Source: Chitinophagaceae bacterium (GTDB lineage Bacteria > Bacteroidota > Bacteroidia > Chitinophagales > Chitinophagaceae). From it: 21,502 nucleotides of DNA. The stretch covers positions 1 to 21,502 of the forward strand of contig JAACZX010000002.1 of assembly GCA_009996555.1 (NCBI GenBank). The letters run 5' to 3'. Below are positions 6,005 through 13,599 of this stretch, piece after piece. Numbering within the stretch: position 1 is the first letter of the stretch; the number at the start of each line of letters is the position of its first letter. Under the pieces are notes generated by a model. It was not told where the DNA came from and searched no databases. It worked only from the letters and a program-made list of their open reading frames with translations. Made by a program: the position numbers and the translations under genes.

Positions 6005-6063
6005 AAAGTCGGAAAGCGTAATTCTCTGCGTTTTGCGGAGTGAGTCTTCCGGACTTTCTTTCT
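6005..6063 (+). terminator. Dyad after kynU, probable terminator and possible operator
   Basis: AAAGTC-GGAA (6005-6014) pairs with TTCC-g-GACTTT (6047-6057), 10 bp with one bulged G. Inside it a second stem CTCTGC/GCGGAG (6024-6029 with 6035-6040) has a GTTTT loop. A pyrimidine-rich run, TTTCTTTCT, follows and merges with the toxin-antitoxin promoter box. The position suits a kynU terminator, but it could also be an operator for the downstream antitoxin. Confidence 0.45.
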
Positions 6064-6070
6064 ATCTTTG
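6063..6070 (+). promoter_or_regulatory. -7 box (TATCTTTG) of the toxin-antitoxin/pyrF unit
   Basis: A perfect TAnnTTTG box ends four bases before the ATG at 6075, the same spacing as at 3090-3104. No TTG is found at the standard distance upstream. A transcript from here would be essentially leaderless and would read through the antitoxin and toxin into pyrF. Confidence 0.55.
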
Positions 6071-6074
6071 TCTC

Positions 6075-6302
6075 ATGACAGAATTCGCAGCATATATCTA
6101 CATTGATCCTGAAATTCGATTCGGGAAGCCTTGTTTAAAGGGCACACGTATTGCTGTTGCAGATGTGTTGCAATTACTTGCACAAGGGGCTTCACACGAA
6201 GAAATTCTCTCTGATTTCCCTGCGCTTACTGAACAGCATATTTTGGCTTCACTTGCATTTGCTGCAAATAGGGAAACAATGATTAAAATGATCGCTGCCT
6301 GA
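6075..6302 (+). CDS. DUF433-family antitoxin
   Basis: A 75-residue protein matching the DUF433 profile: IDPEIRFGKPCLKGTRIAV (residues about 10-28), then a helix-turn-helix-like segment with GASHEEILSDFPALTEQHIL. DUF433 proteins are usually the antitoxin partners of PIN-like DUF5615 proteins and probably bind DNA to autoregulate the pair. The ATG at 6075 is chosen over an in-frame upstream start at 6033 because the DUF433 homology starts just after it and a -7 box lies four bases before it. Its stop overlaps the toxin start by one base (TGATG). Family assignment is strong; action as an antitoxin here is inferred from the partner. Confidence 0.88.
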   Translation: MTEFAAYIYIDPEIRFGKPCLKGTRIAVADVLQLLAQGASHEEILSDFPALTEQHILASLAFAANRETMIKMIAA

Positions 6303-6646
6303 TGAAACTGCTCTTAGATGCAAATATTTCGTGGCGATTGGTTAAGCTGTTACAAGAAAAAAGTATTGATAGTATACATGTGGAACAAACATCTTTACCT
6401 GTTCCTGCATCGGATCGAACTATCTGGCAATATGCGTTAAACGAAAATCTCATTATTGTTACGAATGATGAAGATTTTTTGAACATGAGTAATCTATATG
6501 GATTTCCACCGAAAGTAATATTGATCAAAACAGGTAATATGCGTACAGCATATCTGTTTGATTTAATTGTAAAACATTATTCTGCCATTAACGAGTTTGC
6601 AAATACTGCAGATATCGGGCTTCTTGAAATTTATAGTAAACAATGA
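6302..6646 (+). CDS. DUF5615 PIN-like toxin
   Basis: A 114-residue protein of the DUF5615 (Mut7-C/PIN-like) group, probably a metal-dependent RNase toxin. It opens with MKLLLDANISWRLVKLL, whose Asp6 lies in the usual first acidic position. It has SDRTIWQYAL in the middle and the acidic block IIVTNDEDFLNMS near residue 60, the typical TxDxDF motif. It overlaps the antitoxin by one base upstream and pyrF by four bases downstream (ATGA at 6643-6646). The gene looks richer in AT than pyrF, consistent with acquisition of the pair, though that is by eye only. It appears intact. The cellular target is unknown. Confidence 0.85.
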   Translation: MKLLLDANISWRLVKLLQEKSIDSIHVEQTSLPVPASDRTIWQYALNENLIIVTNDEDFLNMSNLYGFPPKVILIKTGNMRTAYLFDLIVKHYSAINEFANTADIGLLEIYSKQ

Positions 6647-10438: not shown

Positions 10439-11815
10439 ATGGTAACAGTAATTATCCCTGTATTGAATGAAGCGGAAACAATTGAAAGCGTTGTAAAATT
10501 TGCCTGGTCGAATGAACATGTATCGGAAGTGATTGTTGTTGATGATAAGTCTTTTGACGATACCGTAAATATTGCTTCAGCTGCAGGTGCAAAAGTTATT
10601 ACCAGTACAAAGTTGGGTAAAGGGATGTCAATGAAAGATGGGTTGCTTTGTGCAACAAATGATATTCTTGTTTTTCTGGATGGTGATATTAATCCTTATC
10701 CTCCTAATACGGTTCGTGATCTTACCGATCCCATCATCAATAACACGCATGATTTTGTAAAAGCCACATTCGGTCGTAATGCAGGAAGAGTAACAGAACT
10801 TGTTGCCAAACCATTGCTGAATATTTTATTTCCTGACCTTTCTGAATTTGAGCAACCCCTGAGCGGAATGATTGCAGGACGTAAACAGTTTTTTGAGAAG
10901 ATCGATTTTTATGATGATTATGGAGTGGACATTGGTATTCTCATTGACATGTACCTGATGAATGCACGCATTACAGAAATAAACATCGGTTACATAGATA
11001 ATAAAAGCAAACCATGGCAGGCGCTTGGTAAAATGAGTAAAGAAGTATCACGTGCCATTATTCAAAAAGCCATGCAACAGAATAAGCCCAATGCAACACT
11101 GGAAGAGCTGCAGTCTTTTTCTGAAATACGTGACCAGATGGAGTTTGCTATCCGTGAAAGTTTGAAGGGGTTAGATAAGATTGCCATTTTTGATATGGAT
11201 GGCACAATACTTCGTGGAAGATTTATTGACACCTGTGCAAAGCTGTACAGTTTTCAAAAGGAGTTGCTTGATATACGGGCAAGTGGTGCAGATCCTGCCA
11301 GTACAACAAAAAATATTGCCAAGCTGCTCAAAGGACTTAATCTGTCGCAGATACTTGCCGTGGCCGACAGTATTCCGCTGGTGTATGATGTAAAGGATGT
11401 AGTAAAGGAATTGAAAAACCGGGGTTATGTAGTGGGGATCATCAGCGATAGTTATGATGTGGTGACCAATCACATCAAAACAAAAATTGGTGCCGATTTT
11501 TCATTGGCCAATGAACTGGAGTTTTCAAAAAGTGTGGCAACAGGTGAGGTAAAACTTCCTTCTTTCTTTTTTAATCATAACGAATCTATCTGCAAGCATT
11601 CCATGTGCAAAACAAATGCAGTGCAGCATATTCTGAAGCACTACAATATCGACATCAACAATGCTATTGCCATTGGCGATAGTGAAAACGATCTGTGCAT
11701 GGTGAAGCATGTGGGTGTGGGTGTTTCTTTCTGTTCATCAAACGAATTATTGAACTATCTTGCCGACAGGCAGATCGTTAAACCTTCTTTTGAAGAAATA
11801 CTGGAATTTGCCTGA
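10439..11815 (+). CDS. Fused GpgS-like (GT81) glycosyltransferase and SerB-like HAD phosphatase
   Basis: Predicted bifunctional enzyme that would make a glycosyl-3-phosphoglycerate from NDP-sugar and 3-phosphoglycerate, then remove the phosphate to give a glycosylglycerate compatible solute. Residues 1-215 are a GT-A domain: VTVIIPVLNEAETIESVV, VVDDKSFDDT, GKGMSMKDGL and the metal motif DGD (81-83). The block GRVTELVAKPLLNILFPDL (117-134), then QPLSGMIAGR and YGVDIGILID (161-170), closely resembles mycobacterial glucosyl-3-phosphoglycerate synthase. Residues 246-458 are a HAD domain: FDMDGTILRG (Asp252, Asp254), ISDS (336), Lys391 region and GDSENDL (413-419). The 169 bases between the upstream terminator and the ATG hold no clear promoter box. 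It overlaps the ClC gene by one base (TGATG). Mannosyl rather than glucosyl transfer, or another acceptor, is possible. Confidence 0.75.
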   Translation: MVTVIIPVLNEAETIESVVKFAWSNEHVSEVIVVDDKSFDDTVNIASAAGAKVITSTKLGKGMSMKDGLLCATNDILVFLDGDINPYPPNTVRDLTDPIINNTHDFVKATFGRNAGRVTELVAKPLLNILFPDLSEFEQPLSGMIAGRKQFFEKIDFYDDYGVDIGILIDMYLMNARITEINIGYIDNKSKPWQALGKMSKEVSRAIIQKAMQQNKPNATLEELQSFSEIRDQMEFAIRESLKGLDKIAIFDMDGTILRGRFIDTCAKLYSFQKELLDIRASGADPASTTKNIAKLLKGLNLSQILAVADSIPLVYDVKDVVKELKNRGYVVGIISDSYDVVTNHIKTKIGADFSLANELEFSKSVATGEVKLPSFFFNHNESICKHSMCKTNAVQHILKHYNIDINNAIAIGDSENDLCMVKHVGVGVSFCSSNELLNYLADRQIVKPSFEEILEFA

Positions 11816-13599
11816 TGAACATGCCGCTCAGGACAATTATCCGAAATATTAACAGGTATCGTGCTGCACACATCAGCCACAGAAATTTTCTGTTCATTGC
11901 AAGTATCATTACAGGAGTAGTAATGGGGCTTGTTGCAGTGGCACTTAAAAAATCTGTACATGCTATTCAGCATTGGTTACAGGAAGGTTTTTTTGGTTAC
12001 GACTGGCAATTTCTTTTTTATCTGCTTCCGTTAATAGGCATACTCATTACCGTGTTTTATGTGCAACGTGTACATAAAGGTTCGTTAGGAAAAGGGATCA
12101 GTGGAATTATACAATCTGTTTCAAGACGCAATGGAAATGTGTCGGCAGATAATACATACAGCCACATGGTGAGTAGCGCTGTAACTGTTGGCTTTGGAGG
12201 CTCAGTAGGATTGGAGGCGCCAATTGTTATTACAGGCTCAGCAGTAGGTTCAAATATCGCCAGGATATTTTTGTTAGGCCAGAAAGAACGTATTCTTTTA
12301 CTTGCATGTGGTGCTGCTGCAGGTATTGCAGCTGTATTTAATACGCCTGTTGCCGGTGTGTTATTTGCAATGGAAGTATTACTGGCAGAATTTTCTATTC
12401 CCACGTTTATACCTGTATTAATTGCTTCTGCAAGTGGTGCGGTTATTTCAAGGTTGATGTATAATGAGCATTTATTCTATCTCATTACACAAGACTGGAA
12501 GATCGATGCAATACCTTTTTATTTATTGCTGGGCGGTTTGTGCGGATTGGTTTCTGTTTATTTTATGCGGGTATATTACTGGACGGAAAAAAAGTTTGCC
12601 CAAACCAAAACAGTCATACCAAAAGCAATTGGAGGAGGGCTGTTGCTAGGGTTGCTTATTTTCTGTTTCCCTGTTTTATATGGTGAAGGATATTCCACTA
12701 TTGCATCATTATTCTCCGGCGATACTTCAAAACTTCTGGAGAATGCTTTTTACAAAGAATGGGTGAGCAATCCTTATATACTTTTACTCATTATTGCTGG
12801 TATAGTTCTATTTAAAGTAATTGCTACAGCTGTAACCATTAATGCGGGTGGTAACGGTGGCATTTTTGCTCCCACTTTATTCTCCGGTGCTGTAACAGGT
12901 TTTGGTTTTGCCTTCTTCTTTAATACAACCGGGTTGAAGGAATTGCAAACAGTAAACTTTGTAGCTGCAGGCATGGCCGGTATTTTAAGTGGAGTAGTGC
13001 ATGCACCATTAACATCCATCTTTCTTATTGCGGAAGTAACCGGTGGTTATACATTGTTTGTGCCGCTTATGATTGTATCGGCAGCAAGCTATTTTATTAC
13101 CCGTGCTTTTGAACCATATTCCATTTATACAGAGAAGTTGGCGCAAAAAGGATTTAAGGTTGATGATAAGGAACTGGTGCTGCTGAACAATATAAAACCC
13201 GAATCTATTGTTGAACGGAGTTTTATTGCCTTGCAGGAAAATGATCGTTTCCGTAAGTTGAGCAATGCGTTTTTGGTGAGCGACCAAACCGTGTTTCCTG
13301 TTTTGAACAGTGAAAACAAGTTGGTGGGTCTTGTGTATATTGATGATGTAAAATCAATTTTGATGCATGAAGAGCTGTTTGATCAGAAACTTATTTCTGA
13401 AGTAATGGTTAAGCCGCAATACAGCATTTCGGTAAAAGACGATATTCAAAAGATCATGCGCCTGTTTGATCTTTCGGGGCTTTGGTATATTCCCGTACTT
13501 ACTACTGATGGAAGTTTTGCAGGCTTTGCAGATAAACGAAAACTGCTGGCGCTACTGCGTGAAACACTCACTTCGCATCAGTTATCTGAACGATTATAG
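11815..13599 (+). CDS. ClC-family chloride channel/transporter with two CBS domains
   Basis: A 594-residue integral membrane protein moving chloride (or another anion) across the inner membrane. The ClC core spans residues about 25-435. The selectivity-filter segments are GKGISGII (92-99), GFGGSVGLEAPIV with gating Glu134, GGNGGIFAPTLFSG (346-358) and GYTLFVP with Tyr412. After FNTPVAGVLFAMEV (175-188) the second Glu of the E. coli EE pair (proton Glu203) is Val188, as in animal ClC channels. The Ser of the usual GSGIP is Lys93. The C-terminal 125 residues form a CBS pair, a likely nucleotide-sensing module. It begins inside the stop of the glycosyltransferase-HAD gene and overlaps the convergent HxpB-like gene by six bases. 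Channel versus exchanger is undecided. Confidence 0.93.
   Translation: MNMPLRTIIRNINRYRAAHISHRNFLFIASIITGVVMGLVAVALKKSVHAIQHWLQEGFFGYDWQFLFYLLPLIGILITVFYVQRVHKGSLGKGISGIIQSVSRRNGNVSADNTYSHMVSSAVTVGFGGSVGLEAPIVITGSAVGSNIARIFLLGQKERILLLACGAAAGIAAVFNTPVAGVLFAMEVLLAEFSIPTFIPVLIASASGAVISRLMYNEHLFYLITQDWKIDAIPFYLLLGGLCGLVSVYFMRVYYWTEKKFAQTKTVIPKAIGGGLLLGLLIFCFPVLYGEGYSTIASLFSGDTSKLLENAFYKEWVSNPYILLLIIAGIVLFKVIATAVTINAGGNGGIFAPTLFSGAVTGFGFAFFFNTTGLKELQTVNFVAAGMAGILSGVVHAPLTSIFLIAEVTGGYTLFVPLMIVSAASYFITRAFEPYSIYTEKLAQKGFKVDDKELVLLNNIKPESIVERSFIALQENDRFRKLSNAFLVSDQTVFPVLNSENKLVGLVYIDDVKSILMHEELFDQKLISEVMVKPQYSISVKDDIQKIMRLFDLSGLWYIPVLTTDGSFAGFADKRKLLALLRETLTSHQLSERL

Follow-up and report, generated by a model that had tools for sequence, protein, structure and literature searches.

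The DNA considered here, hereafter the window, is a stretch of 21,502 nucleotides from a Chitinophagaceae bacterium (Bacteroidota; assembly GCA_009996555.1, contig JAACZX010000002.1). It carries a gene in which a glycosyltransferase domain resembling GpgS (glucosyl-3-phosphoglycerate synthase, family GT81) is fused to a phosphatase domain of the HAD-IB class, followed at once by a gene for a ClC chloride channel or transporter (Table 1). With moderate confidence, the fusion protein is read here as a bifunctional glycosyl-3-phosphoglycerate synthase/phosphatase that would make an anionic compatible solute. The initial annotation had described one open reading frame with a glycosyltransferase domain followed by a HAD domain, and a ClC gene starting inside its stop codon. 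The coordinates bear this out: the TGA stop of the fusion occupies positions 11813-11815, and the ATG of the ClC gene begins at 11815, the last base of the TGA (TGATG).

Pfam places Glycos_transf_2 at residues 3-118 and HAD at 249-422 of the fusion protein, and NCBIfam matches extend over residues 2-230 (glycosyltransferase) and 245-456 (HAD-IB/SerB-type). The structure model has two confident domains (mean predicted local distance difference test score, pLDDT, 87.8). In the ClC protein, Pfam recognises one CBS stretch, at residues 467-516. Residue conservation was assessed in an alignment (A1) of 57 hand-picked rows, 53 of them covered and none from the phosphatase-dead clade described below, with 14 canonical GpgS and 14 SerB-type proteins as controls.

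Table 1. Features of the fusion gene and the adjoining ClC gene, and the canonical GpgS loci; conservation refers to covered rows of alignment A1.
Feature	Position	Strand	Details
GT81-like/HAD-IB fusion coding sequence	10439..11815	+	458 amino acids
GT-A domain, GpgS-like, residues 1-213	10439..11077	+	
DGD motif (D81, D83), donor/metal site	10679..10687	+	both D in 53/53 covered rows
GRVTE (116-120), aligned with GpgS Arg185-Val186-Thr187, acceptor carboxylate site	10784..10798	+	G, R, and T in 53/53
N188, position of GpgS His258	11000..11002	+	N in 53/53; H in 14/14 GpgS controls
Linker, residues 214-243	11078..11167	+	partly low confidence: pLDDT <50 at 216-222 and 233-243
HAD-IB phosphatase domain, residues 244-458	11168..11812	+	
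HAD motif I DMDGT, nucleophile D252	11192..11206	+	53/53 covered rows
R261 at SerB Glu20 position	11219..11221	+	R 43, S 8, K 2 of 53; E in 14/14 SerB-type controls
CxHxxCK loop (385-391), ends in catalytic Lys	11591..11611	+	C 52, H 51, C 52, K 53 of 53
HAD motif IV GDSENDL	11675..11695	+	first D 51/53, last D 53/53
ClC chloride channel/transporter gene, overlaps fusion stop codon	11815..13599	+	594 amino acids; PF00654 284.7 bits, above cut-off 24.8
C-terminal CBS region of ClC, residues 467-585	13213..13569	+	PF00571 29.3 bits at 467-516; NCBIfam CBS-type matches to ~585
Canonical GpgS loci with flanks	L124:5746-8790, L125:5743-8789, L126:5635-8810		

The two halves of the fusion protein

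Judged from its sequence, the glycosyltransferase half is a divergent GT81 relative. GT81/GpgS provides both the best family profile and the best fold among glycosyltransferases: the half scores 178.9 bits against the GpgS profile NF010496, with the next family, AglJ, at 81.9 bits, and its top structure matches are GpgS, MpgS, and MgS chains. The profile search thus upholds the GT81-like half of the initial annotation, and the competing identity named there, a polyprenyl-phosphate GT2, was rejected because the GpgS profile outscores it. The NCBI cut-off for GpgS, 262 bits, is not reached; the canonical control L124 scores 395. Identity with GpgS of Mycobacterium tuberculosis and M. hassiacum is 34-38%, and unlike these enzymes, the window protein is fused to a phosphatase. 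The matched MpgS chains of Rubrobacter xylanophilus (3f1y, 3kia, 3o3p) share 28-30% identity and carry no fused HAD domain.

Arg185 of GpgS has a role at the acceptor site, and its position is kept in all 53 covered rows, as are those of the DxD motif, Lys114, and Thr187. The part of the GpgS paper used here (PMC2581804) lists Asp134-Ser-Asp136, Lys114, and Glu232, has Val186 and Thr187 bind the carboxylate of 3-phosphoglycerate, places His258 near the metal, and links the PLSGE motif to donor choice. The window family also differs from GpgS in having Met for Glu212 and Asp for Glu232, the latter across the 53 covered rows, with Glu kept in the 14 canonical controls. A far relative, in G135, retains His at the His258 position.

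The assignment of the C-terminal half to the HAD-IB class is confirmed by a TIGR01488 score of 64.7 bits (cut-off 45), and the window protein has the full HAD catalytic set. Against the serB profile TIGR00338, the half stays under the cut-off (112.3 vs 144.15 bits). Its earlier description as a full SerB-like HAD domain holds for the fold and catalytic motifs, but the phosphoserine-selecting Glu20 and Arg56 are gone (0/53). Even in a wider set, none of 58 rows has Glu at the Glu20 position; the Arg56 column lacks Arg in every covered row, the adjacent column having Arg in 22 of the 53, while the controls keep Arg56 in 14/14. These changes, seen in 53/53 rows against conservation in 14/14 controls, fit a substrate without an amino group. 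A further difference from SerB is the inserted CxHxxC loop, which occurs with its following Lys in none of the 14 SerB-type controls and may form a metal or redox site. In a stand-alone archaeal HAD-IB protein (P0358, Nitrososphaerales), the Arg and the two Cys known from the fused HAD domain recur, and the His is replaced by Arg.

That the HAD domain is the phosphoserine phosphatase (SerB) of the cell, incidentally fused to a glycosyltransferase, is very unlikely. In favour of it, the domain's own genome, 93% complete, contains SerC and has no other full-length SerB-type match (111.3 bits for the domain, 21.8 for the next); SerB is among the source names for the fusion protein, and SerB above the curated cut-off occurs in three of 244 family genomes (G433, G442, and G355), none among the fusion matches listed. 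Set against this are the altered Glu20 position, the altered Arg56 position, for which a one-column-shifted Arg is possible, the repeated decay of the HAD domain, and a SerC match in all 12 tested family genomes showing neither fusion nor SerB-type match at the thresholds used. In total, SerC matches were found in 16/16 genomes tested, seven of them above the curated cut-off. Since SerC is present in those 12 genomes, another phosphoserine phosphatase is likely to exist in Chitinophagaceae; plain SerB identity was rejected on this ground and on the residue test.

Distribution, split forms, and decay of the phosphatase

The fusion is real and widespread, not a product of chance. From 8000 scored candidates, 3510 matches were obtained, and both the GT2-type and the HAD Pfam domains are present in 120/120 among the matches listed, one of which is the window's own protein (query cover 93-100%). 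Relatives named Lacibacter share 81-90% identity with it, which puts the window in this genus or close to it. Genome surveys, as proposed with the initial annotation, recovered a conserved fusion in Bacteroidota. A single frame covers both halves in six of 296 genomes of a phylum sample, and 74 of 244 genomes in a family sample match at E 1e-12, 70 of them with both halves in a single open frame; the exceptions are G384, G412, and G331, which match one half only, and G486, where the frame is broken. With the glycosyltransferase half as query, 116 of 394 Chitinophagaceae genomes match at E 1e-25. The family is thus common, yet sources name its members inconsistently, as GpgS, SerB, HAD-IB phosphatase, or glycosyltransferase.

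Among the places listed for the glycosyltransferase half, frames shorter than 300 amino acids occur only in G541, at a contig end, and in G608 and G603, where the two halves are adjacent genes (L133 and L134, respectively). L134 is nested among fused rows with tree support, so at least this case looks like fission.

In 57 of 58 rows, all catalytic residues of the glycosyltransferase are kept, the exception being L115. The HAD domain has lost a catalytic residue in 17 of 56 tree rows, a count that includes four rows with only Asp-to-Asn in motif IV, which may keep activity; the other 13 lost other residues or more than this one. The tree requires at least four changes of the intact/dead label, and intact and dead forms occur together in G302 (L105, L106), G464 (L100, L101), and G524 (L120, L121). 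One paralogous clade (L101, L106, L113, L114, L116-L119, L121, and L140) comprises proteins of 487-540 amino acids with an inactivated HAD domain, in which GRVTQ or GRVTK replaces GRVTE.

Predicted function and its alternatives

The favoured reading, a synthase joined to its own phosphatase, draws on precedent. Synthase-phosphatase fusions are established for solutes, and at each of the three canonical GpgS loci retrieved with flanks (L124-L126), the next gene after GpgS encodes a HAD protein of another type; on these grounds, the window protein is taken to form a glycosyl-3-phosphoglycerate and then to remove its phosphate. MgsD of Dehalococcoides mccartyi, which combines GT55 with HAD-IIB, belongs to another glycosyltransferase family and HAD class than the window protein. 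The logic appears to be common: as described in part of the MgsD article (PMC8490865), this bifunctional mannosylglycerate synthase turns nucleotide sugar and 3-phosphoglycerate into a glycosylglycerate with one polypeptide, as predicted for the window protein, whose architecture fits an enzyme of this kind. GgpPS of Marinobacter and others is, in the portion of its description used here (PMC10873239), a fused glucosylglycerol-phosphate phosphatase-synthase for a compatible solute, although its phosphatase is N-terminal and its acceptor different. No description of a GT81-HAD fusion was found in the open-access literature, judged by titles and abstract openings; as far as these listings show, GT81-like plus HAD-IB is a new pairing of known parts.

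In the proposed pathway, the GT81-like domain would take a hexose from a nucleotide sugar and attach it to 3-phosphoglycerate or to a closely similar phosphorylated carboxylate. The fused HAD-IB domain would then take off the phosphate, leaving a negatively charged glycosylglycerate that could act as an osmolyte and as a counter-ion for potassium. In Lacibacter, the ClC protein would be made together with the fusion and would adjust or balance chloride. We infer donor, acceptor, product, role, and joint action with ClC: the donor would be glucose or mannose, the acceptor is less sure than the initial annotation held, and overlap and adjacency are what suggest a functional link between ClC and the fusion. 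To our knowledge, solute use in these bacteria has been little studied. If the proposal is correct, it describes how a single gene can yield a valued compatible solute, as well as another independently built synthase-phosphatase fusion, and the intact, split, and phosphatase-dead forms provide a natural series for testing why fusion and dephosphorylation matter.

Neighbouring genes were compared across 57 loci, picked to cover diverse relatives, the window's genus, split genes, and additional genera. Their neighbours had not been seen when they were picked, except that 1.5-kb flanks of some of these places had been inspected earlier. Excluded from the counts were L016 and L018 (the same places as L137 and L128), L091 (glycosyltransferase missed by the open reading frame caller), the canonical loci L124-L126, and L135 (contig end). 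Labels came from phmmer comparison with seed proteins from the loci themselves. The controls were 563 complete open reading frames of at least 100 amino acids, taken from 40 arbitrarily chosen 18-kb stretches in genomes that had supplied target loci as well. Of the 113 direct neighbours, 15 are ion or water transport or DUF389 genes, while the 563 control genes include 2 (Fisher p ~1e-10); if the Lacibacter ClC is counted once, the comparison is 10/103 against 2/563 (Fisher p 2.7e-7). Usp genes account for 16/113 against 0/563, one of them (L134) being below the Pfam cut-off, and kinase or regulator seeds had no match among the 563 control genes. A Pfam scan of the 113 neighbours counted Usp 15, ClC 6, DUF389 3, and Na_H_Exchanger 2. 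None of these four reaches two members in a random 113 of the control genes, where MarC has two. Within two genes of the fusion, a transport or DUF389 gene is found at 14/57 loci and Usp at 16/57.

Several observations weigh against the proposed enzyme and its role. In the glycosyltransferase half, Asn replaces His258 and PLSGM replaces PLSGE in 53/53 rows (14/14 GpgS controls keep the His and the Glu), and the window protein has 15 fewer residues between DxD and GRVT than M. tuberculosis GpgS; donor and acceptor may therefore differ from those of GpgS. Both halves fall below their equivalog cut-offs (GpgS, serB). The loss of HAD catalytic residues in 17/56 rows indicates that some lineages can do without dephosphorylation by this domain. 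Among the neighbours, eight acyl-CoA dehydrogenase and eight RRM genes in the same 113 come from shared synteny, so the raw counts overstate independence. The neighbour families were also chosen after the loci were seen, and 27 of the 57 loci have neither a transport/DUF389 nor a Usp neighbour. For these last two reasons, the neighbour data support, but do not prove, an ionic-stress role, and the osmotic or ionic-stress module of the initial annotation is retained for that part of the relatives with transport or stress neighbours.

The same post hoc choice, loci without such neighbours, and synteny-inflated counts would suit a different view, in which ClC and the other transport neighbours reflect coincidence or shared synteny and the gene encodes an enzyme of general metabolism; the confinement of direct ClC adjacency to one genus (6/57 loci) also favours it. 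This view seems improbable in light of the same-genome control, the random control set, and the separate arrangement of DUF389, fusion, NhaD, and ClC in G675.

The residue changes bear on a further alternative, that the glycosyltransferase makes a different glycosyl carboxylate or, as mycobacterial GpgS does, a lipid or polysaccharide primer rather than a free compatible solute. Donor and metal positions altered throughout the family and a shorter acceptor region point this way, as does the mycobacterial precedent, in which, according to part of the source (PMC4555173), glucosylglycerate primes methylglucose lipopolysaccharide. At one locus, L096, a guanylyltransferase-type gene beside KpsF/KdsD hints at GDP-mannose, the single such hint, or at a glycan cluster. 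We nevertheless regard a primer or other carboxylate as a rather unlikely product: L096 is the only such neighbour seen in the 57 loci, part of whose neighbours were covered by annotation, and the commonest direct neighbours, besides syntenic housekeeping genes, are Usp, ClC, and kinase domains.

A broader proposal, to which we give little credence at present, is that of a new ion-linked solute pathway in Bacteroidota. It would combine a GT81 offshoot with a changed donor and acceptor site, a HAD-IB domain with a Cys-His-Cys metal or redox loop, and chloride, sodium, and water transport, and its dead-phosphatase sisters would put out a phosphorylated sugar-glycerate or act as a pseudophosphatase regulator.

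ClC and other neighbouring genes

Among the 57 loci, ClC is the direct neighbour of the fusion only in the window's genus, where it adjoins the gene in six of nine fusion-bearing genomes. Overlap of the TGATG type recurs in three of the six ClC-adjacent loci (the window, L127, and L137), and the remaining three have the ClC start a few bases further on. No ClC adjoins the fusion at the 84%-identical loci L017 and L018/L128, and none was found in G577 at E 1e-10. Across 16 genomes, picked partly with knowledge of which loci had a nearby ClC, the gene is present once or twice in 12 and was not found in G577, G654, G504, and G212. As an obligate partner, ClC was rejected on the grounds of adjacency in 6/57 loci, its lack at L017 and L018/L128, and the lack of a match in G577 at that threshold; the coupling proposed initially is seen as overlap in half of the adjacent loci, but within one genus.

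In other genomes, ClC lies ~5 kb upstream of the fusion (G464 and G302). G675 provides a separate, second link to ClC: DUF389, fusion, NhaD, and ClC follow one another on one strand (L130:1198-6946), with ClC as second neighbour and NhaD scoring 152.9 bits against NF038006 (cut-off 80). A scan of 1.5-kb flanks found ClC in four of 37 loci, namely L016 (Lacibacter cauensis), L048, L049, and L050, the first two being one place; L019-L023 and L048-L076, with flanks of this length, were screened only for the window's own neighbours.

DUF389, a family of membrane proteins, lies directly beside the fusion in G212, G091, and G675 (L087, L090, and L130), with a 4-base overlap in L090 and L130. Na_H_Exchanger genes adjoin it in G524 and G319, a Na+/Ca2+ exchanger in G190, an aquaporin in G654, and PF03458 in G676. 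Six of the 16 loci with a Usp neighbour also have a histidine kinase within two genes. In G349 (L096:4759-6832), KpsF/KdsD and mannose-1-phosphate guanylyltransferase-type genes stand directly upstream of the fusion; the latter gene is immediately upstream on the same strand and scores 301 bits against TIGR01479 (cut-off 373). Canonical GpgS is flanked by an M20-type peptidase gene (confirmed by Pfam for L124 alone) and by a HAD gene that is a candidate GpgP.

The Kv channel gene that the initial annotation placed 2.4 kb downstream does start 2,417 bases past the ClC stop, but its association is only syntenic. It was rejected as part of the unit, since three other genes intervene and the synteny is kept in L016-L018 with or without ClC. 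Elsewhere in the window, at 6033-6646, lie two short open reading frames that resemble a DUF433/PIN-like pair of the toxin-antitoxin type.

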